The notes under the pieces were generated by a model. The model was not told the origin of the DNA, searched no databases, and worked only from the letters and a program-made list of their open reading frames with translations. Below, piece by piece: positions 9,608 to 31,990 of a stretch of DNA of 32,842 nt. How positions within the stretch are numbered: position 1 is the first letter of the stretch; each line of letters starts with the position of its first letter. Both the position numbers and the translations under genes were made by a program. Source of the DNA: Terriglobales bacterium (GTDB lineage Bacteria > Acidobacteriota > Terriglobia > Terriglobales > Acidobacteriaceae). The stretch is from positions 1-32,842 of the forward strand of contig JASHOU010000160.1 of the NCBI GenBank assembly GCA_030038475.1, read 5' to 3'.

Positions 9608-9636
9608 TTGACCTTGGGTGCATCTTTCGATACTCT
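9608..9636 (+). promoter_or_regulatory. Promoter of the ispH-shc hopanoid operon
   Basis: TTGACC (9608-9613) and TACTCT (9631-9636) are separated by 17 bp, a good sigma-70 match. Transcription would begin at about 9643, which argues against translation from the TTG at 9608 and for a start further down at 9689. Confidence 0.55.
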
Positions 9637-9688
9637 CAGAGCATCTTTATACCGTGGGAAAGTGTACCCTTGTGGTGGGGGAAATTGC

Positions 9689-10678
9689 TTGTCTGAGATC
9701 AGGAATTTGCCTACTAAAACCTTACTGCTGTTGAAGCCGCGGGGATTTTGCGCGGGAGTGGTGCGGGCGATCGATATTGTGCGGATTGCGCTGGAGGCAT
9801 TCGGGCGTCCGATTTATGTGCGCAAGGAGATCGTGCATAACCGCTTTGTGGTGGAAGAACTACAGCAGAAGGGCGCGATTTTTGTCGACAACGTGCACGA
9901 GGTGCCCGAGGGAGAGCGGGTGATTTACAGCGCGCACGGAGTTTCTCCCGAGGTCCGCGAAGCGAGCAAGGCGCGCAAACTGAGAGTGATCGATGCGACG
10001 TGCCCACTGGTCACCAAGGTGCATGTGGAGGCGGTGAAGTTTGCGAAAGAAGGCTATTCGCTGATTCTCATTGGCCATCGCGATCACGATGAGGTAATTG
10101 GGACACTGGGCGAGGCTCCGGCGGTGACGCAGGTGGTGGGATCACCGGCGGAAGTCGCGTCGGTCACGTTGCCCGATCCGAATCGGGTAGCGTATTTGAC
10201 GCAGACGACGCTGAGTCTGGATGAAACGCGCGACATTATTGCGGCGCTGCGGGCGCGGTTTCCTAACATCAAAGGCCCGGCGGCGCAGGATATCTGCTAC
10301 GCCACGGAAAACCGCCAGGTCGCGGTGAAACATGTAGCCTCGGACGCGGATTTGCTGCTGGTGGTGGGCTCGGATAACAGTTCGAATTCGAAGCGCTTGG
10401 TAGAAGTGGCGAGGAGTTTAGGGACTCCGGCGCATCTAATCGATGATTGCCGCGACATTCAACCGCAGTGGTTGAATAACGTGAAGACGGTGGCATTAAC
10501 GGCGGGCGCGTCGGCTCCGGAGCATCTGGTGCAGGAAGTGGTGGAGTATTTGGCGGGAAAGGGTTTTAGCGACGTGCAGGAGCTGGAGATCATGCCCGAG
10601 AACGTTCGCTTTGGATTGCCGCCGGAGATTGTGGCAACGATTTCAGCGGCTCCGGTGGGCGCTGCGGTGGAGACTTAA
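9689..10678 (+). CDS. ispH: 4-hydroxy-3-methylbut-2-enyl diphosphate reductase
   Basis: IspH makes isopentenyl and dimethylallyl diphosphate from HMBPP, the last step of the MEP pathway. From the TTG at 9689 (329 residues) the three iron-sulfur cysteines are C21 (GFCAGV), C105 (ATCPLV) and C203 (CYATENRQ). H50 (VHNRFV), H83 (SAHGVSP), E135 (GHRDHDEVIGT) and the TQTTLS motif make up the rest of the substrate site. All are intact. A purine-rich GGGGGAAA precedes the TTG; the open frame extends to 9608, but that would overlap the predicted promoter. It is the first gene of the hopanoid cluster, 11 bp before shc, so it probably boosts precursor supply for triterpene synthesis. A second housekeeping copy elsewhere cannot be excluded. 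Confidence 0.93.
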   Translation: MSEIRNLPTKTLLLLKPRGFCAGVVRAIDIVRIALEAFGRPIYVRKEIVHNRFVVEELQQKGAIFVDNVHEVPEGERVIYSAHGVSPEVREASKARKLRVIDATCPLVTKVHVEAVKFAKEGYSLILIGHRDHDEVIGTLGEAPAVTQVVGSPAEVASVTLPDPNRVAYLTQTTLSLDETRDIIAALRARFPNIKGPAAQDICYATENRQVAVKHVASDADLLLVVGSDNSSNSKRLVEVARSLGTPAHLIDDCRDIQPQWLNNVKTVALTAGASAPEHLVQEVVEYLAGKGFSDVQELEIMPENVRFGLPPEIVATISAAPVGAAVET

Positions 10679-10689
10679 CCTGGAGTTAT

Positions 10690-12651
10690 ATGGACGAATC
10701 CTCCCCTCATAGTTCGGCTCCTGCGCCGCAAATGCGATTTGGAAAGATCGACGACCTGGGAAGTCGGGTTGCGGTTGCCGCAGACGCGGCTCGCAATTAT
10801 CTTTTCTCACAGCAGCATGAACAAGGTTACTGGTGCGGAGAGCTGGAAGCCGATACCACGCTCGAATCCGATTACATTTTGCTGCACACGCTGCTCGGTA
10901 CGGGCAACCAGAAGCGCTTTGACAAAGCTGCGCGTTACATCCTGAATCATCAGAATGAAGATGGCGGATGGGGCATTTATGCGCGCGGGCCTTCGAACGT
11001 CAGCGCTTCGGTGAAGGCTTATTTTGGGCTGAAGTTGGCGGGATTCACGGTGGATCATCCGGCGTTGCTGCGCGCGCGCAAAAAGATTCTTGAATTAGGT
11101 GGCGTGACCGAGGTCAATACCTTTACCAAGATCTATCTCTGTTTCTTTGGGCAATACGATTACGATGCGGTGCCGGCCATTCCACCGGAAATTGTGCTGT
11201 TTCCCAACTGGTTCTGGTTCAATATCTACGAAATTTCGTCGTGGTCGCGGGCGATTCTGGTGCCGCTTTCGATTTGTTACGCGAAGAAGCCGTTCAAAAA
11301 GATTCCAGATAAAATGGGCGTGGAGGAGTTGTTTGTTGGTGGGCGCGATAAGTCGCGCATGCATTTGCACTGGGCCAGGGAAAAGATTTCGTGGCGCAAC
11401 TTTTTCTTATGCCTAGACCGCATCACGCATTGGTTTGAGCTCGTGCATGTGCGGCCGCTGCGGTCGATTGCGTTGAAGAAGGCCGAGAGATGGGTGCTGG
11501 AACGATTTGAGATGAGCGATGGGCTGGGCGCGATTTATCCCTCGATGATGAATGCGATCATCGCGCTGCGCTGCCTTGGGTATTCGCTGGACGATCCGCA
11601 GGTGATTCGGGCGCTCGATGAGTTTGAGAAACTGGGAATCGAAGAGGATGACACTTTCCGTATGCAGCCCTGCATGTCTCCCGTGTGGGATACGGCGTAT
11701 GCCTTGTTTGCGTTGAGCGGGGCAGGAGTTCCGGCGACGGACGCCCGGATGGTGAAGTGCGCGGATTGGATTCTGCAGAAGCAGGTGCGCAAGCCGGGAG
11801 ACTGGAAGATCAAGAATCCGAAGGGCGAGCCAGGCGGATGGTACTTCGAGTTCAACAACGAGTTCTATCCCGATGTCGACGACACGGCGATGGTTTGTTT
11901 AGGGCTGAGCCAGGTCGAGCATCCGAACGGACGTTATCAACGCGAGTCGGTGCAGCGGGCGATCGATTGGATCCTGTCGATGCAATGCAAGGATGGCGGC
12001 TGGGCGTCATTCGACAAAGACAACGATCGCATGGTGTTTCAGTACATACCATTTGCCGATCACAACGCCATGCTCGATCCGGCGACGGTCGATATCACGG
12101 GCCGGATTCTGGAGTGCCTCGCAGCGTATGGGTATAGCCAGAGTCATCCGGCGGTGCAGCGAGCGCTGAAGTTCATTCGCAAACAGCAGGAGCCGGATGG
12201 AAGCTGGTTCGGACGCTGGGGCGTGAATTATATCTACGGAACGATGCAGGTTTTGCGCGGGCTCGAGGCTATGGGCGTTGACCGCAACGACCCGATGATT
12301 CAGCAGGCGGCAGAGTGGCTGCGTTCTGTGCAGAATGCCGATGGAGGTTGGGGTGAGACGGTGGGATCGTATGACGATCCGAACCTTCGCGGGCAAGGCG
12401 AAAGCACAGCTTCGCAGACGGCGTGGGCGATCATGGGACTTTTGGCAGTCGGCGATACACGCAGCGAATGCGTGGCGCGCGGCATAGCTTATCTTTTGCG
12501 CACGCAGAAAAAAGATGGATCTTGGGACGAGCAGCTTTTTACAGGAACCGGTTTCCCGCGCGTCTTTTACCTGATATACCACCTCTACCGCCAGTATTTC
12601 CCGCTGATTGCGTTGACGAGCTATGCAAAAGTGATAGCGGAGAAAAACTAG
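10690..12651 (+). CDS. shc: Squalene-hopene cyclase
   Basis: A 653-residue cyclase converting squalene to hopene or hopanol at the inner membrane face. The protonating motif D395-V-D-D398 is intact, inside NNEFYPDVDDTAMVCLGL. Several QW repeats are visible: NHQNEDGGWGIYARGP, MQCKDGGWASFDKDND, QQEPDGSWFGRWGVNY, VQNADGGWGETVGSYDDP and TQKKDGSWDEQLFTGTGFP. Length is normal for the family. A GGAG lies five bases ahead of the ATG, and the gene follows ispH by 11 bp. The product feeds HpnA/HpnG side-chain chemistry downstream, while the squalene supply genes hpnCDE sit 4.6 kb further along. Confidence 0.96.
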   Translation: MDESSPHSSAPAPQMRFGKIDDLGSRVAVAADAARNYLFSQQHEQGYWCGELEADTTLESDYILLHTLLGTGNQKRFDKAARYILNHQNEDGGWGIYARGPSNVSASVKAYFGLKLAGFTVDHPALLRARKKILELGGVTEVNTFTKIYLCFFGQYDYDAVPAIPPEIVLFPNWFWFNIYEISSWSRAILVPLSICYAKKPFKKIPDKMGVEELFVGGRDKSRMHLHWAREKISWRNFFLCLDRITHWFELVHVRPLRSIALKKAERWVLERFEMSDGLGAIYPSMMNAIIALRCLGYSLDDPQVIRALDEFEKLGIEEDDTFRMQPCMSPVWDTAYALFALSGAGVPATDARMVKCADWILQKQVRKPGDWKIKNPKGEPGGWYFEFNNEFYPDVDDTAMVCLGLSQVEHPNGRYQRESVQRAIDWILSMQCKDGGWASFDKDNDRMVFQYIPFADHNAMLDPATVDITGRILECLAAYGYSQSHPAVQRALKFIRKQQEPDGSWFGRWGVNYIYGTMQVLRGLEAMGVDRNDPMIQQAAEWLRSVQNADGGWGETVGSYDDPNLRGQGESTASQTAWAIMGLLAVGDTRSECVARGIAYLLRTQKKDGSWDEQLFTGTGFPRVFYLIYHLYRQYFPLIALTSYAKVIAEKN

Positions 12652-12694: not shown

Positions 12695-13126
12695 ATGGAC
12701 GAGAATCTCATTCTAGTGGCGGGACTTCCCGGGAGCGAAAAAACAACATATCTCTCCGAAATGCTCAGAGGCGGCGGTTTGTTGGTTTTCGATGATTTCA
12801 AGAAAGGCGGAAAGGATCTAAGGTTTCGTAGTTCGCCTAAATTTTGCGCCCTAGTCGGCGCGCTCTGCGCTGGCGTCAAGTGTATCGTAGCTGACATCCA
12901 CTTCTGTAAGGACGAATCCAGACAGGAAGCGGAGGACGAAATAAGGAAGGAAGTTCCCGACGTAAGGCTCTGCTGGCGTTTTTTCGAGAACGATGCGGCG
13001 GCTTGCGAAGCAAATATCAGAGCACGTAATCGCGACTGTGTTCAAAGTGAGCTGGAGTATTTGGCGCAGTACTCACGCCAATACCGTATTCCACACGATG
13101 CGGTCATATTTTCGGTGTGGAAGTGA
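12695..13126 (+). CDS. P-loop NTPase/kinase-like protein inserted in the hopanoid operon
   Basis: A 143-residue protein with a Walker-A-like loop at residues 10-18, AGLPGSEKTTYL. The last glycine of the usual GxxxxGK[ST] is Glu here (E15-K16-T17). A Walker-B-like segment is GLLVFDDFKK, and a second hydrophobic strand VKCIVADIHF may carry a further acidic residue. The C-terminal part (NDAAACEANIRARNRD, then DAVIFSVWK) resembles nucleotide-kinase-like AAA proteins with a lid region. There is no clear ribosome binding site. GC content and codon use (ATA, AGG, AGA) look unlike the neighbours, so recent acquisition is likely. It ends only 9 bases before hpnA and does not break the operon. I do not recognise a specific function. 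Confidence 0.7.
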   Translation: MDENLILVAGLPGSEKTTYLSEMLRGGGLLVFDDFKKGGKDLRFRSSPKFCALVGALCAGVKCIVADIHFCKDESRQEAEDEIRKEVPDVRLCWRFFENDAAACEANIRARNRDCVQSELEYLAQYSRQYRIPHDAVIFSVWK

Positions 13127-13135
13127 GAATAGCGG

Positions 13136-14134
13136 TTGAAAGTCTTAGTCACTGGCGCCACGGGATTTCTAGGTAGCCACGTTGCGCGCGTTCTCGCGGA
13201 GCAGGGAGCCGACTTGCGGCTGCTGGTGCGGCCGGCGAGCGACCTGCGCAATATTGAAGACTTGAATGCCGATCGCGCGATCGGTGACCTGCGCGATCCG
13301 GCTTCGATTGAGAAAGCGGTTTCGGGCTGCAAGGTCGTGTTTCATGTTGCCGCGGACTACCGGCTGTGGGTGCGCGATCCCGCGGAAATGTATCGCTCGA
13401 ATGTCGAGGGCACGCGTGCGTTGCTGGAAGCGGCGCGGAAACAGGGCGTGCGGCGAGTCGTGCACACGTCGAGCGTCGCGACTATGGGCTTCGTCTCGGG
13501 CGTTTCGAAGAATGGGAATGTCGCCGATGAGCAGAGTCCGGTCGGCATTGGGGATATGATCGGACATTACAAGCGTTCAAAGTTCATGGCGGAACGCGTA
13601 GCAATAGACGCGGCACAATCGGGTCAGGATGTCGTGATCGTGAATCCGACGACTCCAATCGGCGAGCGCGATATTAAACCGACCCCAACCGGGCGAATCG
13701 TCGTGGATTTTCTGAAGCGAAAGTTTCCGGCATACGTGGAAACGGGATTGAATCTGGTGGATGCAACCGAGTGCGCGCGCGGCCACGTGCAGGCGCTGGA
13801 GAAGGGAAGGCCGGGCGAGCGCTACATTTTGGGCGGAGAGAATTTGACGCTGAAGCAGATTCTGGACCGGCTGGCTGTGATTACGGGATTGAGATCGCCG
13901 ACGGTGAAGTTGCCCTACGTTTTCGCGTTTGCGACCGGCGTCGTGGATGAGATGGTAAGGGGTCGGCTGCTAGGTCACGAGCCCCGCGCGACCATTGACG
14001 CCGTGCGCATGGGACGGAAGATGATGTTTGTGAGTTCGGCCAAAGCGGAACGAGAATTGGGATGGCGGGTGGTTCCCGTGGATGGCGCGTTGCGGCGATC
14101 GGTGGAGTGGTTCCGCAGCCATGGATATGCCTGA
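13136..14134 (+). CDS. hpnA: HpnA, hopanoid-associated NAD-dependent epimerase/dehydratase-like protein
   Basis: A 332-residue extended short-chain dehydrogenase. The nucleotide-binding loop VTGATGFLGSHVARVL is at the N-terminus, the catalytic pattern Y-K-R-S-K is in IGHYKRSKFMAE, and NPTTPIGERDIKPTPTG is the substrate-loop signature of the hopanoid-associated subfamily. The TTG at 13136 must be the start, since the first beta strand (KVLVTGATG) follows immediately. HpnA is a constant member of hopanoid clusters but has no settled reaction; a role in side-chain sugar chemistry is usually assumed. Confidence 0.88.
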   Translation: MKVLVTGATGFLGSHVARVLAEQGADLRLLVRPASDLRNIEDLNADRAIGDLRDPASIEKAVSGCKVVFHVAADYRLWVRDPAEMYRSNVEGTRALLEAARKQGVRRVVHTSSVATMGFVSGVSKNGNVADEQSPVGIGDMIGHYKRSKFMAERVAIDAAQSGQDVVIVNPTTPIGERDIKPTPTGRIVVDFLKRKFPAYVETGLNLVDATECARGHVQALEKGRPGERYILGGENLTLKQILDRLAVITGLRSPTVKLPYVFAFATGVVDEMVRGRLLGHEPRATIDAVRMGRKMMFVSSAKAERELGWRVVPVDGALRRSVEWFRSHGYA

Positions 14135-14176: not shown

Positions 14177-14917
14177 ATGAGAATTGCGATCATAGCTGCG
14201 ATGGAGCGCGAGGTCGCGCCTCTGATTCGAAGCTGGACGCCGAGGACGATCGAACAGGGCGGACGACGATATCAGATTTTTGAAGATGGCCAGGCGGTTG
14301 TGATTTGCGGCGGGATTGGCGCGGAAGCGGCGCGGCGGGCGACGGAAGCGGTGATTCGGGAAGTGAATCCTGCACGGGTCGTTTCGGTTGGATTTGCGGG
14401 TGCACTGGATGAATCGCTCGAAGTCGGCCAGGTTTTCGAGCCGCGCATCGTGATCAATGCTGCCGACGGGATGCGAACCGATGTCGGCGCGGGTGAGGGA
14501 GTGCTCGTCAGTTCCGCGAGTGTGGCCAGCAAAGAGCAGAAGGCGCGGTTCGGCAAAGCTTATGGCGCGAGTGCCGTCGATATGGAAGCGGCAGCGGTGG
14601 CACTGGGAGCGCTGGCACGGGGCGTGGAGTTTGCAGCGCTGAAAGCCATTTCTGACGCCGCCGATTTTGAGTTGCCGGAGATGGAACATTTTGTGGCGAA
14701 GGAGGGAAGTTTTCGCTCCGGCAAATTTGTGTGTCATCTCGCAGTTCGACCGTGGCTGTGGTGGAAGGCCATTATTCTGGCGCGGAACAGTTCCAAGGCG
14801 AGTCGCGCGCTTTGCGCGGCGATTGCAAGTTACCTTAATCGTGAGGCCAGGAGCGAAGTGAATTTGGCCTCGGCTGGAACTCCGATTAGGTTCGGTGTGG
14901 CCAGCTCGAAGCATTAG
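14177..14917 (+). CDS. hpnG: HpnG, nucleoside phosphorylase-type adenosylhopane-processing enzyme
   Basis: A 246-residue member of the nucleoside phosphorylase superfamily. It has IIAAMEREVAPLIRSW at the start, the glycine-rich VVICGGIGAEAARRATEAVI, VSVGFAGALDESLEVGQVF, and the base/ribose motif ASAVDMEAAAVALGA. In the characterised pathway HpnG removes adenine from adenosylhopane to give ribosylhopane (or its phosphate). The gene follows hpnA by 42 bp. HpnH, which supplies adenosylhopane, is not encoded in this window. Confidence 0.85.
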   Translation: MRIAIIAAMEREVAPLIRSWTPRTIEQGGRRYQIFEDGQAVVICGGIGAEAARRATEAVIREVNPARVVSVGFAGALDESLEVGQVFEPRIVINAADGMRTDVGAGEGVLVSSASVASKEQKARFGKAYGASAVDMEAAAVALGALARGVEFAALKAISDAADFELPEMEHFVAKEGSFRSGKFVCHLAVRPWLWWKAIILARNSSKASRALCAAIASYLNREARSEVNLASAGTPIRFGVASSKH

Positions 14918-14984: not shown

Positions 14985-16226
14985 ATGCACGGAGGCACCC
15001 GAGACCATAATCTGATTTCCCAATCTGATTACTCAGGGGAAACGGCAACATCTGTTATGGCCATTGCTCGCACGTTAGCGGTTGAAAACGAAAGCCACGC
15101 GATTCCTTCCACGATGCAGGCAGCCGTGTATCGCGGCGTGAACGATGTGCGTATGGAAGAAGTTCCAGTGCCGGAAATCGGGCCCGGGGAGATTCTGGTC
15201 CGCGTGCATACCTGCGGAATCTGCGGAACGGACCTGAAAAAGATTGCTACCGGGTCTCACTCCGCGCCGCGCATTTTTGGACACGAAACCGCCGGCGTGG
15301 TTGCAAGAGTGGGCGACGGCGTCGGCAAATTTACCGTCGGCGATCGCGTGGTTGTGTTTCACCATATTCCTTGCAGGGAGTGTTATTACTGCCGGCACAA
15401 AACGTTTGCGCAGTGCGCCACCTACAAGAAAGTGGGTTGCACGGCAGGTTTTGAGCCTTCAGGCGGCGGGTTTGCGGAATATGTCCGCGTGATGGACTGG
15501 ATTGTCGAAAAAGGAACAGTTCGCATCCCGGACGGAGTCAGTTTTGAGCAGGCAAGTTTTGTTGAGCCGGTGAATACTTGCATCAAAGGTATTGAGACAC
15601 TGCGGTTGCTAGCTGGTGAAACGGTACTGGTGATGGGGCAAGGCCCAATTGGCCTGATCCTGGCAACACTGGCGAAGCGGGCGGGCGCACAGGTGATTAC
15701 TTCCGATTTGCATTCAGCGAGGCTTACAATAGCTAATAGCTTCGGCCTCAATCAGACAATTGACGCGTCCAAGGCTGACGCTGGCGAAGCCGTGCGCGAA
15801 ATTACTGAAGGGCGCGGGGCAGATGCCGTGATTTTAGCAGTAGGCGGGAGCGCGTTAATCCGTCCGGCTATGGATGCGACGCGACCGGGAGGTAGGCTTT
15901 TGTTATTTGCCCAGACGGCGCGGGGCGAGGCGACGATCGATCCAGCGGCAGTGTGCGTAGATGAAAAGGCTTTATTGGGATCGTACAGCGCATCGGTTGA
16001 ACTGCAAGACGAGTCGGTACGGTTCGTGATGAATCGCGAGATGGATCTGGAGCGGCTGATCAGCCACCGGTTTCCGCTGCAAAGCGCGGTGGAAGCGCTG
16101 CAACTGGCTGCGCATCCGGGGCCCGACTCGATGAAGATTGTAATCCAGCCTGGCATCGCTGCGGCTGCGGAAACCGCCGGTGCGGGCGCAAAGGATTGGG
16201 GCGTGCGGGAAGGAAATCAACTGTGA
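14985..16226 (+). CDS. Zinc-dependent medium-chain dehydrogenase, copy 1
   Basis: A 413-residue zinc alcohol/polyol dehydrogenase of the sorbitol/threonine-dehydrogenase type. Catalytic zinc ligands are in HTCGICGTDLKK and IFGHETAGVV, with a further E in FVEPVNTC. Structural zinc cysteines are in PCRECYYCRHKTFAQC. The Rossmann loop VMGQGPIGLILA is followed by VITSDLHSARL, whose aspartate suggests NAD(H) use. The conserved domain begins near residue 44; ATGs at 15057 and 15114 are alternative starts, and the first about 43 residues look non-conserved. It lies between hpnG and hpnC and overlaps copy 2 by GTGA. This position suggests oxidation or reduction of a polyhydroxylated hopanoid side chain (inference). 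Confidence 0.85.
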   Translation: MHGGTRDHNLISQSDYSGETATSVMAIARTLAVENESHAIPSTMQAAVYRGVNDVRMEEVPVPEIGPGEILVRVHTCGICGTDLKKIATGSHSAPRIFGHETAGVVARVGDGVGKFTVGDRVVVFHHIPCRECYYCRHKTFAQCATYKKVGCTAGFEPSGGGFAEYVRVMDWIVEKGTVRIPDGVSFEQASFVEPVNTCIKGIETLRLLAGETVLVMGQGPIGLILATLAKRAGAQVITSDLHSARLTIANSFGLNQTIDASKADAGEAVREITEGRGADAVILAVGGSALIRPAMDATRPGGRLLLFAQTARGEATIDPAAVCVDEKALLGSYSASVELQDESVRFVMNREMDLERLISHRFPLQSAVEALQLAAHPGPDSMKIVIQPGIAAAAETAGAGAKDWGVREGNQL

Positions 16227-17272
16227 ATGGCAAGATGACGGCGGCTGTACTGTACGGCAAAGAAGACATCAAGATTGAGAAGGTACCGATCCCGCGCGTG
16301 GGCGACGGCGAGGTGTTGGTTAAGGTGCACGTGGCGCTAACTTGCGGCACCGATTTGAAGGTGTATCAGCGCGGCTATCACGCGCGCATGATTGTGCCGC
16401 CGGCGCTGTTTGGCCATGAACTGGCGGGGACGATTGAAGAAGTCGGCGAGGGCGTGCGCGGCTTCAGAAAAGGCATGCGCGTGGTCGCGCTGAATTCGGC
16501 TCCATGCGGCATGTGTTTTTATTGCTCGAAACATCAACTGAACCTGTGCGAGGATTTGCTCTTCAACAACGGCGCCTACGCAGAATACATCCGGATTCCG
16601 CGGCGCATTGTGGAAGGCAATATGCTGGTGGTGCCTCCGAGCGTGAGCTTTGAAGATGCGGCCATGACTGAACCGCTGGCGTGCGTTCTGCGCGGTCTGC
16701 ACGAGACAGGAGTGCAAATCGGTGACACGGTAGCGGTGATCGGCGGCGGTCCGATCGGCCTTATGTTTGTGCATGTCGCGAAGGCGATCGGATGCAATGT
16801 GATCTCGGTGGTGAAGCGCGATTCGCAGGTCGCGTTGGCGCGCAAGAAGGGCGCGCATGAGGTGGTGCAGATTACCAAGGTCAAGGATGCGGTGGAAGCC
16901 GTGCGGGAGTTGACTCCGGAGATACGTGGCGCGGATGTGGCGATCGAAGCGGTCGGCCGTCCGGAAGCCTGGGAGTGGGCGGTGCAGATGGTGCGCAAGG
17001 GCGGGACGGTGAATTTCTTCGGCGGGTGCGCGGCGGGATCGAAGGTGCAGTTAGATACCAACCGGCTGCATTATTCGGAGATTACGTTGAAAGCGACCTT
17101 CCATCACACTCCGGAGACGGTGCGGCGGGCCTTCGGTTTGATTGCCGAAAAAAAAGTTTGCGGCAACGACTATATTACCGGCGAAGCCCCACTCTCGCGT
17201 CTGCAGGAAGTGCTGCGCCACATGCTGAACCGGGGTGGCGATATTAAGACAGCGATCATTCCAGGTCACTAG
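16223..17272 (+). CDS. Zinc-dependent medium-chain dehydrogenase, copy 2
   Basis: A 349-residue paralogue of the preceding gene. Zinc-site motifs are ALTCGTDLKVYQRG, LFGHELAGTIEEVG and TEPLACVLRG. The structural zinc lobe is PCGMCFYCSKHQLNLC. The nucleotide loop is VIGGGPIGLMFVHVAKAIG, followed by VISVVKRDSQVALARK, where the usual acidic residue is replaced by Val-Lys-Arg, a pattern compatible with NADP(H). The GTG at 16223 overlaps the TGA of copy 1 and has GGAAGGA upstream; the ATG at 16235 is the alternative. The two proteins could form one functional unit or catalyse successive redox steps with different cofactors. Confidence 0.85.
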   Translation: MNGKMTAAVLYGKEDIKIEKVPIPRVGDGEVLVKVHVALTCGTDLKVYQRGYHARMIVPPALFGHELAGTIEEVGEGVRGFRKGMRVVALNSAPCGMCFYCSKHQLNLCEDLLFNNGAYAEYIRIPRRIVEGNMLVVPPSVSFEDAAMTEPLACVLRGLHETGVQIGDTVAVIGGGPIGLMFVHVAKAIGCNVISVVKRDSQVALARKKGAHEVVQITKVKDAVEAVRELTPEIRGADVAIEAVGRPEAWEWAVQMVRKGGTVNFFGGCAAGSKVQLDTNRLHYSEITLKATFHHTPETVRRAFGLIAEKKVCGNDYITGEAPLSRLQEVLRHMLNRGGDIKTAIIPGH

Positions 17273-17303
17273 CGCTTCCCGCAATTATGACAATCTATAT
17301 CCG

Positions 17304-18299
17304 ATGACAACGGCGGCCGACCATTCTATTGTGGCTCCTATTGTTTCAGCGCCGCCCTCTTCCGCCTGGAGTGTGCTGCCCCAGGAGTACGCCATTCCTG
17401 AACGAGCGCCTTCGGAGGCAGCGGCGCGCGAATACTGCCGGCGATTGGCGCGTTCGCACTACGAAAATTTTTCGGTTGCTTCTTGGTTTCTGCCGGAGCG
17501 GCTGCGCCAGCATTTCTTCAACGTTTACGCCTATTGCCGAATTTCGGACGATCTCGGCGACGAGGTGGGAGACAGCGCCGCAGCTTTGCAGTTGCTCGAT
17601 CAGTGGGAGTCGGAGTTGAATGCGTGCTACGCGGGCCATCCGCGCCATCCGGTATTTGTGGCATTGGCCGACTCGGTGCGCAAGTTTGAGATTCCGAAGC
17701 ATGAATTCGCGGATTTGCTGACCGCGTTTCGGCAGGATCAAACGATTACGCGCTACGAGACATTCAACGATCTGCTGGGCTACTGCCGGTATTCGGCGAA
17801 TCCTGTCGGGCACCTGGTGCTGTACGTTTGCGGATACCGTGATGCGGAGCGGCAACAGCTTTCGGATTACACTTGCACGGCGCTGCAGCTGGCGAACTTC
17901 TGGCAGGATGTCAGCGTGGATTTTGCCAAAGCGCGAATCTATCTCCCGCTCGAAGATTTGCGCCGCTTTGGCGTGAGCGAGGAGGAGATTCGCGAGGAGA
18001 AAAACACTTCGGCATTTCGCGAGATGATGCGCTTTGAGGTCGCGCGGGCAAGAGAGTGGTTTGCGCAAGGGATGGCGCTGGTCGCGAAGGTCGATCGCGC
18101 CCTGGCGATTGATATTGAGCTCTTCAGCCGCGGCGGACAAGAGATTTTGAATGCGATCGAGCGGCAAAATTACGCGGTGCTGGGCAGACGTCCGGCGATT
18201 TCCAAGACACAGAAACTAAATCTGGTCGCTTGTGCGGCACTGGGGAAGCTGCTCGGTAAACCTCTGGGTAAACAAAAGCTTGGTAAACAGAAACAATGA
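17304..18299 (+). CDS. hpnC: HpnC, squalene synthesis protein (hydroxysqualene synthase)
   Basis: A 331-residue trans-isoprenyl-diphosphate synthase-fold protein. The first Asp-rich motif is D82-D83-L-G-D86 in YAYCRISDDLGDEVGD, and the second is QLANFWQDVSVDFAKARIYLP. In the three-enzyme route HpnC converts presqualene diphosphate to hydroxysqualene. The ATG at 17304 is the natural start, though the frame is open further up. Its stop overlaps the hpnD start as ATGA. The C-terminus is an odd basic tail with repeated LGK (LGKLLGKPLGKQKLGKQKQ). Confidence 0.93.
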   Translation: MTTAADHSIVAPIVSAPPSSAWSVLPQEYAIPERAPSEAAAREYCRRLARSHYENFSVASWFLPERLRQHFFNVYAYCRISDDLGDEVGDSAAALQLLDQWESELNACYAGHPRHPVFVALADSVRKFEIPKHEFADLLTAFRQDQTITRYETFNDLLGYCRYSANPVGHLVLYVCGYRDAERQQLSDYTCTALQLANFWQDVSVDFAKARIYLPLEDLRRFGVSEEEIREEKNTSAFREMMRFEVARAREWFAQGMALVAKVDRALAIDIELFSRGGQEILNAIERQNYAVLGRRPAISKTQKLNLVACAALGKLLGKPLGKQKLGKQKQ

Positions 18300-19237
18300 G
18301 CACGGCCGTGTCAAATGCGCCTGCGCAGTTCGCGCCGACTGCTTCGCAGTTGGAGATGGCGTATTCGGTTTGCCGGCACATCGCGCGCTCCGCCGCTAAG
18401 AATTTTTACTACGGATTTGTAGTACTGCCGAGGCACAAGCGCAACGCATTGAGCGCGGTATATGCGTTTATGCGGCGCTGCGACGACATCGCCGACGACA
18501 ACACGCTAAGCCGCGAGGATCGGCACAACAAGCTGGCCGAATGGCTGGATAAGGTGCACCGCGCATTGGCCGCGCAGCCTACGGATGACCCTTTGCTATT
18601 GGCGCTGACGGATGCGCAGCGCCGTTATCAGATTCCGATTGGACTGCTCGATCAGCTCGCGTTCGGTACGGCTGCGGATCTGGACTACGACGAGCCGGAA
18701 TCCGCCGGCAAAACAGCGCTGGCCGCGCGCTACCAGAATTTTGACGAGCTGCGCCAGTATTGCTACGGTGTGGCATCGGTGGTTGGGCTGGTTTGCATCA
18801 GGATCTTCGGGTATCGCGATCCGGCTGCAGAGCCGCTCGCGGAACGCTGCGGGTTGGCATTTCAGCTGACGAATATTATTCGCGATGTCAAAGAGGATGT
18901 TGGCAACGGAAGAATTTATTTTCCGCAGGAAGATCTTGCGCAGTTCGGTCTCACGGCCAACGATCTTGCCGCAGTGAACATCGACGTCTCTCGGATTCGC
19001 CCGCTTCTGGTTTTGGAAGCCGAACGCGCTCGCGAGTGCTACCGGGCCGGAGACGAATTGATTCCGCTGGTAAGTGAAGACAGTCAGCCTGCGCTTTGGG
19101 TGCTGATTACGATTTATCGACGGCTCCTCGAGAAAATTGCGGCAAAGCAATACGACGTGTTCAGCGAGCGCGTCGCGTTAACCGTTCGCGAGAAACTGGT
19201 AATTCTCGGAAAAGGATTCGTGCAGCGACTGGTGTGA
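18296..19237 (+). CDS. hpnD: HpnD, presqualene diphosphate synthase
   Basis: A 313-residue squalene/phytoene synthase-fold enzyme joining two farnesyl diphosphates into presqualene diphosphate. Both Asp-rich motifs are intact: YAFMRRCDDIADDN (D63, D64, D67, D68) and LTNIIRDVKEDVGNGRIYFP. The Y-x-x-x-x-x-x-P helix pattern FYYGFVVLPRHKRNAL near residues 37-51 is typical. Its ATG overlaps the hpnC stop, so the two are translationally coupled. Confidence 0.94.
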   Translation: MSTAVSNAPAQFAPTASQLEMAYSVCRHIARSAAKNFYYGFVVLPRHKRNALSAVYAFMRRCDDIADDNTLSREDRHNKLAEWLDKVHRALAAQPTDDPLLLALTDAQRRYQIPIGLLDQLAFGTAADLDYDEPESAGKTALAARYQNFDELRQYCYGVASVVGLVCIRIFGYRDPAAEPLAERCGLAFQLTNIIRDVKEDVGNGRIYFPQEDLAQFGLTANDLAAVNIDVSRIRPLLVLEAERARECYRAGDELIPLVSEDSQPALWVLITIYRRLLEKIAAKQYDVFSERVALTVREKLVILGKGFVQRLV

Positions 19238-19254: not shown

Positions 19255-19329
19255 CTAACTTGGTCTATCCTGACTCGATCTACCCTAATTTGATCTATCC
19301 TAAATTTATCCGTCCAAACTTGATCGCTT
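19255..19329 (+). repeat. Five 15-bp tandem units at the hpnE start
   Basis: Units begin at 19255, 19270, 19285, 19300 and 19315: CTAACTTGGTCTATC, CTGACTCGATCTACC, CTAATTTGATCTATC, CTAAATTTATCCGTC and CAAACTTGATCGCTT. If translated they give a YPN/IYPK/IRPN pentapeptide series. They may be part of the leader, of the protein, or of both. Confidence 0.85.
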
Positions 19330-20753
19330 CGAATAAGACACGCGCTACAGTTGCCATCGCCGGTGGTGGTTTGGCTGGCCTTGCGGCTGCATGCGCTCTG
19401 GCAGAAGCCGGTTTTCGCGTGACGTTGTTTGAGCGGCGTCCTTATCTGGGCGGGCGCGCATCTTCGTATCAGCATCCGGGCACCGGCGAGATTGTCGACA
19501 ATTGCCAGCACGTGTTGCTCGGCTGCTGCACGAACCTCATCGATTTCTATCGCCGCACCGGAGTCGATGGCAGAATTCGCTGGTACGAGCAGTTGACGTT
19601 TCTGGAACCTGGCGGCCGCGCTTCGAAAATTGCGCCATCGGCGTTGCCGGCTCCTTTACATACGGCTCCAGCATTTCTTCACGCTGCATGTCTCAGCTTT
19701 GCCGATAAGTTGAGCATCAGCCGGGCAATGATGGCGTTGGCGCCGGCGTTGCCTGCGGATCGAGGAGAAACATTTCTCGATTGGTTGAAACGTCACGGAC
19801 AAACCACGGGAGCCATCGATCGTTTCTGGCGGACCATTCTGGTCAGTGCGCTGAACGAGGATCTTGACCGGGTTTCGGTTCCGTATGCGGCGCAGGTGGT
19901 GCGCGAGTCTTTTCTCAAATCGGCTGCTGCGGGACGTATGGGGCTCCCGACAGTGCCACTCACCGAACTGTATAACTCGGCTGGAGAGTACATTCGCGCG
20001 CGCGGCGGAGAGATTCACTTTCGTGCGGGCGTCGAGTCGTTTGCAGCCGAAGGCTCCGAAGTGAGCGTGACGGCGAACGGCGAGGAACAGGAATTCGACT
20101 ATCTGGTGCTAGCTGTTCCGTTTGATGCGTTGGGAAAGATACTGCCCGATACGCCTTCGGCCGCGCCTTTAGCCGCTGCTCTCGGACAATTTTCGACGTC
20201 GCCAATTACGGGGATTCATCTGTGGTTCGATCACGAAATCAGCAAACTCGATCACGCCGTACTACTCGACCGCACCATTCAATGGATGTTTCACAAATCG
20301 CGGATCATTGAATTCAGGAACCAAGAATCGCGAAGCGGAGAAAATCACGATCATGCCAACGGCAGTTACGTGGAGCTGGTAGTGAGTTGCTCGCGAAGTC
20401 TGGTTGAAAAATCAAAAAATGAGATCGTCGAGTTGGCGGTGAAAGAGGCGCAGGAATTTTTTCCCGCTGCACGCGAGGCGAAGCTGCTGAAATCGACCGT
20501 AATTAAAGAAGTGCATGCGACGTATTCGCCGCGCCCGGGGATGGACCAATATCGACCCAAGGCGGAAACAGCCTGGCCGCGGGTTTTTCTCGCCGGAGAT
20601 TGGACCGCGACAAGTTGGCCTGCAACCATGGAGGGCGCCGTGCGCAGCGGTTACCTGGCGGCGGAAGCGCTGGCGCGGTTTGCCGGCGAAAGCAACTCTC
20701 GTTTTCTCGTTCCCGATTTAGCACCGAGTGGTTTCATGAAGTTGTTCGGGTGA
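19260..20753 (+). CDS. hpnE: HpnE, FAD-dependent squalene-forming hydroxysqualene reductase
   Basis: An up to 497-residue flavoprotein of the amine-oxidase/phytoene-desaturase fold. The dinucleotide motif VAIAGGGLAGLAAACALAEAG is followed by LFERRPYLGGRASSYQHP and a C-terminal FAD motif RVFLAGDWTATSWPATMEGAV. HpnE reduces hydroxysqualene to squalene as the last squalene-forming step. The start is uncertain: in-frame TTG codons at 19260, 19290 and 19320 have no clear ribosome binding site, and the first about 20 residues are encoded by the 15-bp repeats. The TTG at 19320 would give a protein starting just ahead of the FAD motif. It follows hpnD by 22 bp. Confidence 0.9.
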   Translation: MVYPDSIYPNLIYPKFIRPNLIASNKTRATVAIAGGGLAGLAAACALAEAGFRVTLFERRPYLGGRASSYQHPGTGEIVDNCQHVLLGCCTNLIDFYRRTGVDGRIRWYEQLTFLEPGGRASKIAPSALPAPLHTAPAFLHAACLSFADKLSISRAMMALAPALPADRGETFLDWLKRHGQTTGAIDRFWRTILVSALNEDLDRVSVPYAAQVVRESFLKSAAAGRMGLPTVPLTELYNSAGEYIRARGGEIHFRAGVESFAAEGSEVSVTANGEEQEFDYLVLAVPFDALGKILPDTPSAAPLAAALGQFSTSPITGIHLWFDHEISKLDHAVLLDRTIQWMFHKSRIIEFRNQESRSGENHDHANGSYVELVVSCSRSLVEKSKNEIVELAVKEAQEFFPAAREAKLLKSTVIKEVHATYSPRPGMDQYRPKAETAWPRVFLAGDWTATSWPATMEGAVRSGYLAAEALARFAGESNSRFLVPDLAPSGFMKLFG

Positions 20754-22363: not shown

Positions 22364-23836
22364 CTAGGCTTTGGCCGGTTCCGCGGTCGGCGCTTCTTCC
22401 TTCCGGTTTTCTTTGACCCACTTGTGACGCTGGGCGCGGAGTTTCAAGAAGGTGCGCGCTTCCTTGTACAAGCGCTTGCGCTCGGAACTGTCGAACATCG
22501 CCTTCCTCAAGATGCGATACGCAGCCTTGGGTCGGAAATAATATTCGTCGTAAAAATGATGAACCGCCTCAAGAATTTCCGCGGCGGGAAGGCCCGGATA
22601 CTCGATCTGCACCATCTGGTGGCCGGCGTCGTCGACCATTTTTGAGTCCGTCGTCATGAAGCCATTCTTGATGGCGGCTTCGTGCAATTCGGTTCCCGGA
22701 TAAGCGTGGGCCACGGAAACCTGGATGGTTTCCACGTCGAGCTCTTTGGCGAAGTTGATGGTGTTGTTAATGGTCTCGCGGGTTTCGCCAGGCAGGCCGA
22801 GAATGAAATCTCCGTGAACCACGAGGCCGAGTTTGTGGCAATCCTTGGTGAACTGGCGCGCTCGCTCAACGGTCGCACCCTTCTTGATGTTCTTCAGAAT
22901 CTGCGGATCGCCCGATTCGTAGCCGACGATGAGCAGCCGACAACCCGCTTCTCTCATGGCCTTCAGGGTTTCGTAGCTCGTGGTAACGCGGGAGGTGCAA
23001 GACCAGGTCAGTCCCAGCGGCTTTAGCTTGGCACATAACTCTTCGGTGCGCGCGGCTTGAAGGTTAAAGGTATCGTCGTCGAAGAAAAATTCCTTGACAT
23101 AGGGCCAGTAATCTTTGGCCTTGGCCATTTCGCGGGCCACGTCATCGGTGGAGCGCTTGCGCCAGGGATGCCCGCTGAGCGTTTGCGGCCAGAGGCAGAA
23201 GGTGCATTGGGCCGGGCATCCGCGAGTGGTGTAGAGCGCAACAAACGGATTCAGCAGGAAGGGAACGTTGTAGCGGCGAACGTCGAGGTCGCGGCGGTAA
23301 ACGTCGGTGACATGAGGCAGCGAATCGAGATCCTGAATGGTGGGACGATCGGGATTGTGCACGACACTGCCGCTTTTGCGATAGGAAATGCCAAGAATCT
23401 CTTCGATGGGCTTGCCCTGCGCGTATTCGACAATGGAGTAGTCGAATTCTTTGCGGCAGATCACGTCGATGACTTTGGCTTCCATCAGCGATTTTTCGGG
23501 TAGCACGCTGACGTGAGGGCCGACGAAGGCGATCTTGATATGAGGATTCGCGTCTTTGATGGCCTCAGCGATACGAACATCCCCGGCAAATCCAGGAGTG
23601 CTGGTGAAGAGCACCAGCAGTTCGTAGTCTTTGCAGGTGCGGATGGTTTCTTCCGCTGTGATGTGGTGGGGCGGAGCGTCGAGCAAGCGCGCGCCTTCGA
23701 GCATACCGGTGGGATAGGCAAGCCAGACTGGATACCAGTAGGATTCGATCTCGCGCGTGGCGGGCCAGCGCGAGCCTGCGCCGCCATCGAAATTCTCAAA
23801 CGACGGCGGATTCAAGAACAGAGTTTTTAAGGGCAT
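22364..23836 (-). CDS. hpnJ: HpnJ, B12-binding radical SAM hopanoid-tailoring enzyme
   Basis: A 490-residue radical SAM protein. The N-terminal part is a cobalamin-binding-like domain (ITAEETIRTCKDYELLVLFTST and IKIAFVGPHVSVLPE). The iron-sulfur motif is C207-P-A-Q-C211-T-F-C214, followed by LWPQTLSGHPWRKRS, which matches the HpnJ subfamily. The substrate barrel includes EFFFDDDTFN and LVVHGDFILGLPGETRET. HpnJ is known to turn the glucosamine-like group of bacteriohopanetetrol into a cyclitol ether. The ATG at 23836 has only a weak ribosome binding site. It is transcribed toward the plus-strand hopanoid genes, with the EamA pair downstream. Confidence 0.9.
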   Translation of the reverse strand: MPLKTLFLNPPSFENFDGGAGSRWPATREIESYWYPVWLAYPTGMLEGARLLDAPPHHITAEETIRTCKDYELLVLFTSTPGFAGDVRIAEAIKDANPHIKIAFVGPHVSVLPEKSLMEAKVIDVICRKEFDYSIVEYAQGKPIEEILGISYRKSGSVVHNPDRPTIQDLDSLPHVTDVYRRDLDVRRYNVPFLLNPFVALYTTRGCPAQCTFCLWPQTLSGHPWRKRSTDDVAREMAKAKDYWPYVKEFFFDDDTFNLQAARTEELCAKLKPLGLTWSCTSRVTTSYETLKAMREAGCRLLIVGYESGDPQILKNIKKGATVERARQFTKDCHKLGLVVHGDFILGLPGETRETINNTINFAKELDVETIQVSVAHAYPGTELHEAAIKNGFMTTDSKMVDDAGHQMVQIEYPGLPAAEILEAVHHFYDEYYFRPKAAYRILRKAMFDSSERKRLYKEARTFLKLRAQRHKWVKENRKEEAPTAEPAKA

Positions 23837-30745: not shown

Positions 30746-31990
30746 ATGCATGGGCAAATAATTCTGTGGGCTGCGGGCGTCATTCTAGCCTTGACCTGGT
30801 TTTCCCGCATTGTAGAAGCCGCGATCGGCATGCCGCAGCTTGTCAACATCGCGCAGCCGCAATGGGATCGGAGGCCGTCGTCTGTAAATCGCGGCTCTAT
30901 CCCTCGTGAGCCCGGGGTCAGCGTTATCGTTCCCGCCCGCAACGAGGCCGAACATATTCGCCAGACGCTGCGGCAGTTGTTGGCGCTTGATTATTCGAAT
31001 TACGAAATCATTGCTGTCAATGACCGCTCGAACGACGCTACCGGGCGAATCATGGATGAAATTGCAGAAGGTGCCGTGCTTCGGCAAACGGTTCCGTCGG
31101 CCAATGCAGATCCGGACGAAAGTATTTGCCCCACACGGCTGCACGTGATTCACATTTCAGAATTGCCCGCGGGGTGGTTGGGCAAAACCCACGCCATGTG
31201 GATGGGTAGCCAGCAGGCCAGTGGGGAGTGGCTGCTGTTTACTGATGCCGACGTGCTGTTCAAGTCCGACTCGTTGCGGCGCGCTGTTGCCTACGCCGAA
31301 GCGCAACGGGCCGACCACGTTGTGCTTTTTCCGCGGATGATCATGAAGCATCCCGGCGAGACGATGATGATTGCTTTCTTCCAGGCGCTTTTCGTTTTCG
31401 GGCATCGGCCGTGGAAAGTTGCGGATCCAAAAGCGCGAGACCACATGGGCGTTGGCGCATTCAATTTGGTGCGCCGCCCGGTTTACGACGCAGTCGGTAC
31501 GTATCGCGCGCTTCGCATGGAAGTAGTCGACGACATGAAACTCGGCAAGGTCATCAAGAACGCAGGCTTTGCGCAGCGCAATGTGTTTGGCGAGGATCTG
31601 ATTTCGCTCCATTGGGCCAAAGGAACGTTCGGCATTGTCAACAATCTTACGAAGAACTTTTTCGCCCTGCTTTCCTTCCAGTTGTGGCGTACCGTGGCCA
31701 GTTTCATCGCCATCGGCTTTTTGAATCTCGGCCCGTTTATCGGGATCTGGCTGGCTCATGGATGGGCCCGGATTCCTTATGTCATCGCGCTCGTGTCGCT
31801 TTTTTTCATTTACTACGGTATGTCGCGGCGATCGACGATCCCGCCCTATTATGTTTTCCTGCACCCGGTCAGTAGCAGCGTGTTCATGTACATATTGCTG
31901 CGTTCGATGTGCCACGCGCTCTGGAATGACGGCATTGTCTGGCGGGGAACGAAGTATCCGCTGGACGAACTCCGCAAGGGAGTGGTGTGA
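30746..31990 (+). CDS. Membrane-bound family-2 glycosyltransferase
   Basis: A 414-residue membrane-bound GT-A glycosyltransferase. An N-terminal anchor (IILWAAGVILALTWFSRIVEAA) precedes the donor-binding start VSVIVPARNEAEHIRQTL and EIIAVNDRSNDAT. The metal motif is LLFTDADVLF, and the acceptor/base region reads MEVVDDMKLGK. Three or so helices close the protein (TVASFIAIGFLNLGPFIGIWL and after). It resembles the HpnB/CrtQ-like branch, with GWLGKTHAMWMG as a shared pattern, but I do not assign a symbol. It is co-transcribed with the spinster-like transporter, so glycosylation and movement of one lipid is a plausible pairing. Confidence 0.85.
   Translation: MHGQIILWAAGVILALTWFSRIVEAAIGMPQLVNIAQPQWDRRPSSVNRGSIPREPGVSVIVPARNEAEHIRQTLRQLLALDYSNYEIIAVNDRSNDATGRIMDEIAEGAVLRQTVPSANADPDESICPTRLHVIHISELPAGWLGKTHAMWMGSQQASGEWLLFTDADVLFKSDSLRRAVAYAEAQRADHVVLFPRMIMKHPGETMMIAFFQALFVFGHRPWKVADPKARDHMGVGAFNLVRRPVYDAVGTYRALRMEVVDDMKLGKVIKNAGFAQRNVFGEDLISLHWAKGTFGIVNNLTKNFFALLSFQLWRTVASFIAIGFLNLGPFIGIWLAHGWARIPYVIALVSLFFIYYGMSRRSTIPPYYVFLHPVSSSVFMYILLRSMCHALWNDGIVWRGTKYPLDELRKGVV

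Follow-up and report, generated by a model that had tools for sequence, protein, structure and literature searches.

A tandem pair of zinc dehydrogenases in acidobacterial hopanoid loci, candidates for redox steps on the hopanoid side chain

Hopanoids are sterol-like lipids. Their loci in certain acidobacterial families contain two genes, here named ADH1 and ADH2, for zinc dehydrogenases of the medium-chain (MDR) type. Their order and the distribution of their orthologues tie them to hopanoid genes, and their zinc-site and cofactor-type residues are conserved. Within these families the hopanoid link is strong. On balance we favour the reading that ADH1 and ADH2 form a redox pair for the hopanoid side chain, which the hopanoid locus has recruited in some families of acidobacteria. 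More tentatively, one or both of them may be what reduces ribosylhopane in these families. For the conversion of ribosylhopane to bacteriohopanetetrol (BHT), a step in the formation of a common side chain, there are three testable candidates, HpnA, ADH1 and ADH2, and the phylum includes hopanoid producers in culture.

Two unassigned genes, ug1 and ug2, were described in acidobacterial hopanoid clusters by Sinninghe Damste et al. (2017, PMC5462960). According to the accessible text of that paper, ug1 is a gene of unknown function following hpnA-hpnG. The ug2 gene, whose product of some 350 amino acids frequently carries the annotation Zn-binding alcohol dehydrogenase, precedes hpnC and occurs in all SD1 and SD3 acidobacteria examined there; it is absent from C. 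thermophilum, which makes BHT. By position, ug1 would correspond to ADH1 and ug2 to ADH2. The sole proposal for either gene in the same text is an association of ug2 with hpnC, hpnD and hpnE. The cofactor types, the pairing, the history and the wider genome sample presented here are new. For the reduction of ribosylhopane to BHT the 2017 authors suggested hpnA, noting contrary evidence. They also found that much of the hopanoid content escapes extraction. Judging from the accessible parts of that paper and of a later one (PMC12583986), the enzyme was still not established as of 2025, as the first-pass annotation of this DNA had assumed. No function is assigned to ADH1 or ADH2 in the accessible parts of the literature searched, which included PMC4676935 and PMC8537080 and had subscription papers outside its scope.

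The window, i.e. the whole stretch of 32,842 nucleotides that was analysed, contains on its plus strand ispH (9608..10678), the squalene-hopene cyclase gene shc (hpnF; 10690..12651 from the listed ATG, searched from 10576), a small ORF, hpnA (13136..14134), an hpnG-like gene (14177..14917), ADH1 (14985..16226), ADH2 (16196..17272), hpnC (17235..18299), an hpnD-like gene (18296..19237) and hpnE (19260..20753), in this order. The hpnJ gene (22364..23836) lies downstream of hpnE on the opposite (minus) strand, and HpnH is encoded in the same genome on a different contig. The products of hpnA (492 bits; a hopanoid-associated SDR and the rival candidate for the reductase), hpnC (351.6 bits) and hpnE (489 bits) score over the respective cut-offs. 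The HpnG-like nucleoside phosphorylase, at 96.6 bits, does not reach the curated HpnG cut-off of 187.1, and the HpnD-like presqualene diphosphate synthase, at 241.8 bits, is below the cut-off of 278.6. The small ORF between shc and hpnA (12695-13126, 143 amino acids) has a Walker-A-like start and no Pfam or NCBIfam matches at 0.001. At 30746-31990 there is a glycosyltransferase resembling HpnB, with a score (141.8 bits) far below the cut-off of 379. A scan for promoters and terminators gave no more sites than shuffled sequences.

The ADH1 ORF encodes 413 amino acids, and comparison with relatives points to a start at the ATG at 15057 or later. The probable start of ADH2 is the GTG at 16223 or the ATG at 16235. 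The GTG overlaps the stop codon of ADH1 in the tetranucleotide GTGA (16223..16226, plus strand). ADH1 and ADH2 are 34% identical (121 of 358 alignment columns). Thus two sister zinc MDRs with a GTGA overlap between hpnG and hpnC, as noted in the first-pass annotation, are confirmed.

Both proteins match the ADH_N and ADH_zinc_N domains over cut-off and so belong to the zinc MDRs. The structural-zinc cysteines (Cys4), the catalytic C and the H-E pair are conserved in all 38 rows of the ADH1 group, which include one unrelated extra MDR of G066, and in all 37 ADH2 rows, which leave out f60, of the orthologue alignment. The later zinc-site E is conserved in 37 of 38 and 37 of 37 rows, respectively. 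The roles given to these residues are those of the family. The zinc-site motifs, said earlier to be kept in both proteins of the window, are therefore conserved across orthologues. The two proteins differ where the second Rossmann strand ends. In this family, an acidic residue at this position generally marks NAD use, and a non-acidic residue with a basic one NADP use. In all 37 ADH1 rows the residue is acidic (D in 36, E in one), whereas in 37 of 38 ADH2 rows, the exception being G037, it is non-acidic, with a basic residue one or two positions further on. Thus, judging by sequence, ADH1 looks NAD-type and ADH2 NADP-type, which bears out the initial suggestion of NAD and possibly NADP.

Fold models of ADH1 and ADH2 (mean pLDDT 84.5 and 94.0) match polyol, threonine and other alcohol dehydrogenases at identities of 30% or less among the 50 matches listed for each. 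By sequence, the best solved structure is sorbitol dehydrogenase 1pl6 for ADH1, and the best two are 4ej6 and the NADP(H) ketose reductase 1e3j for ADH2. In a profile search of solved structures with a limit of 1e-60, 4ej6 alone was retrieved for ADH2 and none for ADH1. ADH1 and ADH2 resemble 1pl6 and 1e3j in fold, zinc-site motifs and the cofactor-type residue. However, the identity in structure searches is 25-28%. The named NCBIfam dehydrogenase models (tdh, IolM, GatD, idonate dehydrogenase and others) gave no match over cut-off among the 23 listed for ADH1 and the 25 listed for ADH2. Among the best matches of both are L-threonine 3-dehydrogenase (TIGR00692) and scyllo-inosose 3-dehydrogenase (NF041097), but the scores of 154-172 bits fall far short of the cut-offs of 450-458. 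A plasmid search with ADH1 yielded 56 records, none of which reaches 60% identity; identities are 32-37% among the 15 listed.

Across 247 genomes sampled evenly over the phylum Acidobacteriota, ADH1 orthologues (at least 386 bits, the next match having 227) occur in 38 genomes and ADH2 orthologues (at least 383 bits, with a second tier at 270-305 and the remainder at 207 or less) in 39. Both are present in 38 genomes, and the two sets differ in G132 alone, which has ADH2 and none of the searched hopanoid genes. Among the families, of which f1 and f2 belong to the class of the window and f28, f39, f50 and f60 lie outside it, orthologues were found in f1 (25 of 26 genomes), f2, f28 (nine genomes), f39 (two genomes) and f50; f60 has ADH2 only. 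Presence counts refer to matches over cut-off only, and those of HpnA were read by eye. HpnH is present in 62 genomes and coincides with ADH1 in 35 (Fisher test 3.7e-22, relatedness ignored).

Three of the 38 ADH1 genomes have no HpnH. In G113 both shc and hpnA are in the ADH1 locus, and G211, which is 84% complete, has ispH, hpnA, ADH1 and ADH2 at one place. The third, G221, is a real exception: with a listed completeness of 100%, it carries the two ADH genes, HpnC and HpnE and lacks SHC, HpnH, HpnG and an HpnA over cut-off. Conversely, 27 of the 62 HpnH genomes have no ADH1. In one of them, G007, HpnA and HpnG are missing as well, and thus the gap may be an artefact of the assembly. The other 26 include five f32 genomes with an ADH2-like protein (46-49% identity), accompanied in two of the five by an ADH1-like neighbour (34%), away from hopanoid genes. 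The slot after hpnG in three producers without ADH1 holds no shared candidate reductase: there are a luciferase-like gene and a PLP decarboxylase gene in G108, a glycosyltransferase gene before hpnJ in G029, and a gene for a TonB-domain protein in G152.

In the same sample, ADH1 is found in hopanoid loci in 36 of 38 cases and ADH2 in 36 of 39, and the 36 ADH1 genes adjoin hpnG or hpnA or lie within about 0.8 kb of one of them. The neighbour is an hpnG-like gene in f1 (all 25 ADH1 genes), f2 and f50, and hpnA, not hpnG, for the nine of f28. The ADH1 exceptions are the two f39 genomes, G066 and G221, where the pair follows a Pro_dh gene; for ADH2, G132 is added to these. In 17 f1 genomes the locus is split, and in each of them ADH1 remains by hpnG and ADH2 by hpnC. 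ADH1 also stays with hpnA in 16 of these, hpnA being about 49 kb away in G130.

A search of named loci gave at least 562, mostly metagenome bins titled Acidobacteriaceae, Acidobacteria, Terriglobia or Sulfotelmatobacter among the best 80, which span 68-89% ADH1 identity with 89% for the best one. ADH2 is the next gene after ADH1 in 79 of these 80, and the remaining contig ends 68 bases past ADH1. An hpnG gene lies within 1.5 kb upstream of ADH1 in 63 loci; in six the contig ends first, and in 11 there is none. Within 2 kb after ADH2 there is hpnC or hpnD in 72 of 79 loci, five being cut off and two having none. Six of the 11 loci without upstream hpnG were opened, and in these the ORF directly upstream of ADH1 matches no reference hpn gene. 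In Sulfotelmatobacter and relatives (L147, L149, L150, L155, L158, L165) the run ADH1-ADH2-hpnC-hpnD occurs without adjoining hpnA-hpnG. With 36 of 38 orthologues in hopanoid loci and ADH2 next in 79 of 80 named loci, the hopanoid link of ADH1 is far beyond chance. The comparison of gene neighbourhoods that the first-pass annotation called for thus places the orthologues mostly inside hopanoid clusters, in line with its reading, and more distant homologues outside them, against it.

The 36 genomes with ADH1 in a hopanoid locus share HpnA (36), SHC (35) and HpnH (34), the gaps being in G211 and G113. An HpnG-like protein is present in 35 of the 36, the f28 matches being weak and outside the locus. 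Other parts of the pathway are less regular: HpnC is over cut-off in 28 of the 38 ADH1 genomes, HpnE in 29, HpnJ in 26 and HpnK in nine. As SHC, HpnH and HpnA are shared and HpnC/E and HpnJ/K are not, this pattern of presence argues for a role of the pair in the core side chain rather than in making squalene or cyclitol ethers. A role in cyclitol-ether synthesis was considered and is weakened by the 12 genomes without HpnJ over cut-off, among them G103 with a partial match below it, and by the rarity of HpnK.

If this reading is correct, ADH1 and ADH2 would be zinc MDRs of the polyol-dehydrogenase type that the hopanoid locus of certain families recruited, probably in a single event, and both would run redox steps on the C35 sugar or polyol side chain coming from HpnH and HpnG. 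ADH2 with NADPH would reduce a sugar carbonyl, of ribosylhopane or of a keto form, towards BHT, and ADH1 with NAD(H) would act on that chain too, at a hydroxyl or a carbonyl. We infer here that the hopanoid side chain is the substrate, in which direction each reaction runs, and that both enzymes share one substrate. Bodlenner and co-workers (2015) reportedly saw NADPH use by the ribosylhopane reductase, and a Streptomyces coelicolor mutant reportedly accumulates ribosylhopane (Liu et al. 2014). The nearest solved relatives of ADH1 and ADH2 are mostly secondary-alcohol enzymes, and since ribosylhopane is reduced at an aldehyde carbon, this counts against the pair as its reductase. That identification, made in the first-pass annotation, is plausible as one of at least three live options. 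The part of it that stands is the tie to the hopanoid pathway in the carrier families, with 36 of 38 ADH1 genes beside hpnG or hpnA. As a general BHT-forming enzyme the pair has to be rejected, since 27 of the 62 HpnH genomes lack ADH1 and C. thermophilum makes BHT without ug2, taken here as ADH2 (accessible text of PMC5462960).

Our side-chain reading overlaps with two of its rivals. One possibility, itself no better than tentative, is that HpnA, the SDR encoded near ADH1, is the acidobacterial ribosylhopane reductase and that ADH1 and ADH2 act later, for instance by tailoring the finished polyol. Indeed, HpnA is better distributed (of the 62 HpnH genomes, 59 have it and 35 have ADH1), still adjoins ADH1 where hpnG is outside the locus (f28), and is the enzyme suggested in 2017. 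On the other hand, the accessible text of that paper cites evidence that Burkholderia cenocepacia does not need hpnA to make BHT and that the gene is absent in Rhodopseudomonas (PMC5462960), and according to the text of the 2025 paper it is missing from six of 48 alphaproteobacterial genomes with hpnH (PMC12583986). The other overlapping scheme makes use of the opposite cofactor types, which are conserved. In it, ADH1 with NAD+ would oxidise the secondary hydroxyl of BHT at C-34 and ADH2 with NADPH would reduce the ketone, leading to a different stereoisomer or to a shuttle from aldose to ketose, much like that of sorbitol dehydrogenase and an NADPH ketose reductase on sugars. The near perfect co-occurrence of ADH1 and ADH2 and the best solved matches, 1pl6 for the one and 4ej6 and 1e3j for the other, are consistent with it. 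However, we consider it improbable: these matches are distant, both partners have the acidic cofactor residue in four more distant pairs (f25, f47 and two of f45), and no acidobacterial BHT stereochemistry was found in the accessible parts of the literature searched. In particular, we give a slim chance to the pair being a shuttle at C-34 that yields a BHT stereoisomer or a keto intermediate, unlike the direct aldehyde reduction assumed elsewhere. If the pair does alter the stereochemistry of the side chain, this would bear on the reading of BHT isomers as biomarkers. Hopanes are widely used molecular fossils.

Since ADH2 precedes hpnC or hpnD in almost every hopanoid locus seen, one might suppose that the pair serves squalene formation with HpnC, HpnD and HpnE. 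However, eight ADH1 genomes, all of f28, keep both ADH genes without HpnC and HpnE over cut-off, which weakens this role, and we know of no step in the HpnC/HpnD/HpnE route that calls for a zinc alcohol dehydrogenase. It is thus very unlikely. Somewhat less so, but still doubtful, is a general role in sugar or polyol metabolism, the two genes merely sharing the operon. It would agree with the distant tandem pairs outside hopanoid loci and with the f39 pair beside Pro_dh, including that of G221 without SHC and HpnH. Yet the hopanoid linkage is held through several different gene orders. Moreover, among the matches listed for the 27 HpnH genomes without ADH1 (three of which had no match listed), no lower-scoring MDR was seen by eye at the HpnH, HpnA or SHC loci.

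Tandem pairs of ADH1-like and ADH2-like proteins exist in other families too, and by and large the groupings in one half of the tree recur in the other. In the smaller tree, which has 10 of the 24 f1 rows and omits f25, f34, f45, f47 and one extra MDR of G066, the ADH2 proteins from hopanoid loci (f1, f2, f28, f50) group in a single clade (96/91) that excludes f39 and f60, the rows of f60, f39 and f2 being long and unsurely placed. The corresponding clade of ADH1 is not rejected (p-AU 0.43). However, in the larger tree the ADH1 proteins of f39 fall within the hopanoid-locus group (95/84), at odds with a simple single capture. In the alignment and the larger tree the two proteins of G163 were dropped as copies of those of G094, and of the ADH2 of G221 the last 347 residues were kept, its ORF having been called too far upstream. 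The simplest story is that an older pair with another role was captured by the hopanoid locus and then kept. A single capture into the locus is likely, and transfer of the pair between classes is possible.

The Pro_dh-ADH1-ADH2 run of f39 is seen at L077:6581-9614 and L078:6056-9273; G066 is a hopanoid producer, and G221 has neither SHC nor HpnH. More distant tandem MDR pairs outside hopanoid loci occur in other acidobacterial families (L081, L082, L083, L085, L086, L087, L088, L089, L090, L096). Among the few neighbours checked, in a chosen subset of the lower-scoring matches, these pairs have none in common.

Some observations concern the hopanoid genes themselves. None of the HpnG-like proteins of 71 acidobacterial genomes reaches the curated HpnG cut-off, and hence the model may miss the acidobacterial type. 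Eight of the nine genomes of f28 (loci L092, L100, L111-L115 among this family) have neither HpnC nor HpnE over cut-off, and seven of these have SHC and an HpnD-like gene adjoining ADH2. Thus squalene may come by another route in f28. HpnC and HpnE are each over cut-off in six of the 27 HpnH genomes without ADH1, which suggests that many hopanoid producers of the phylum make squalene in a different way.
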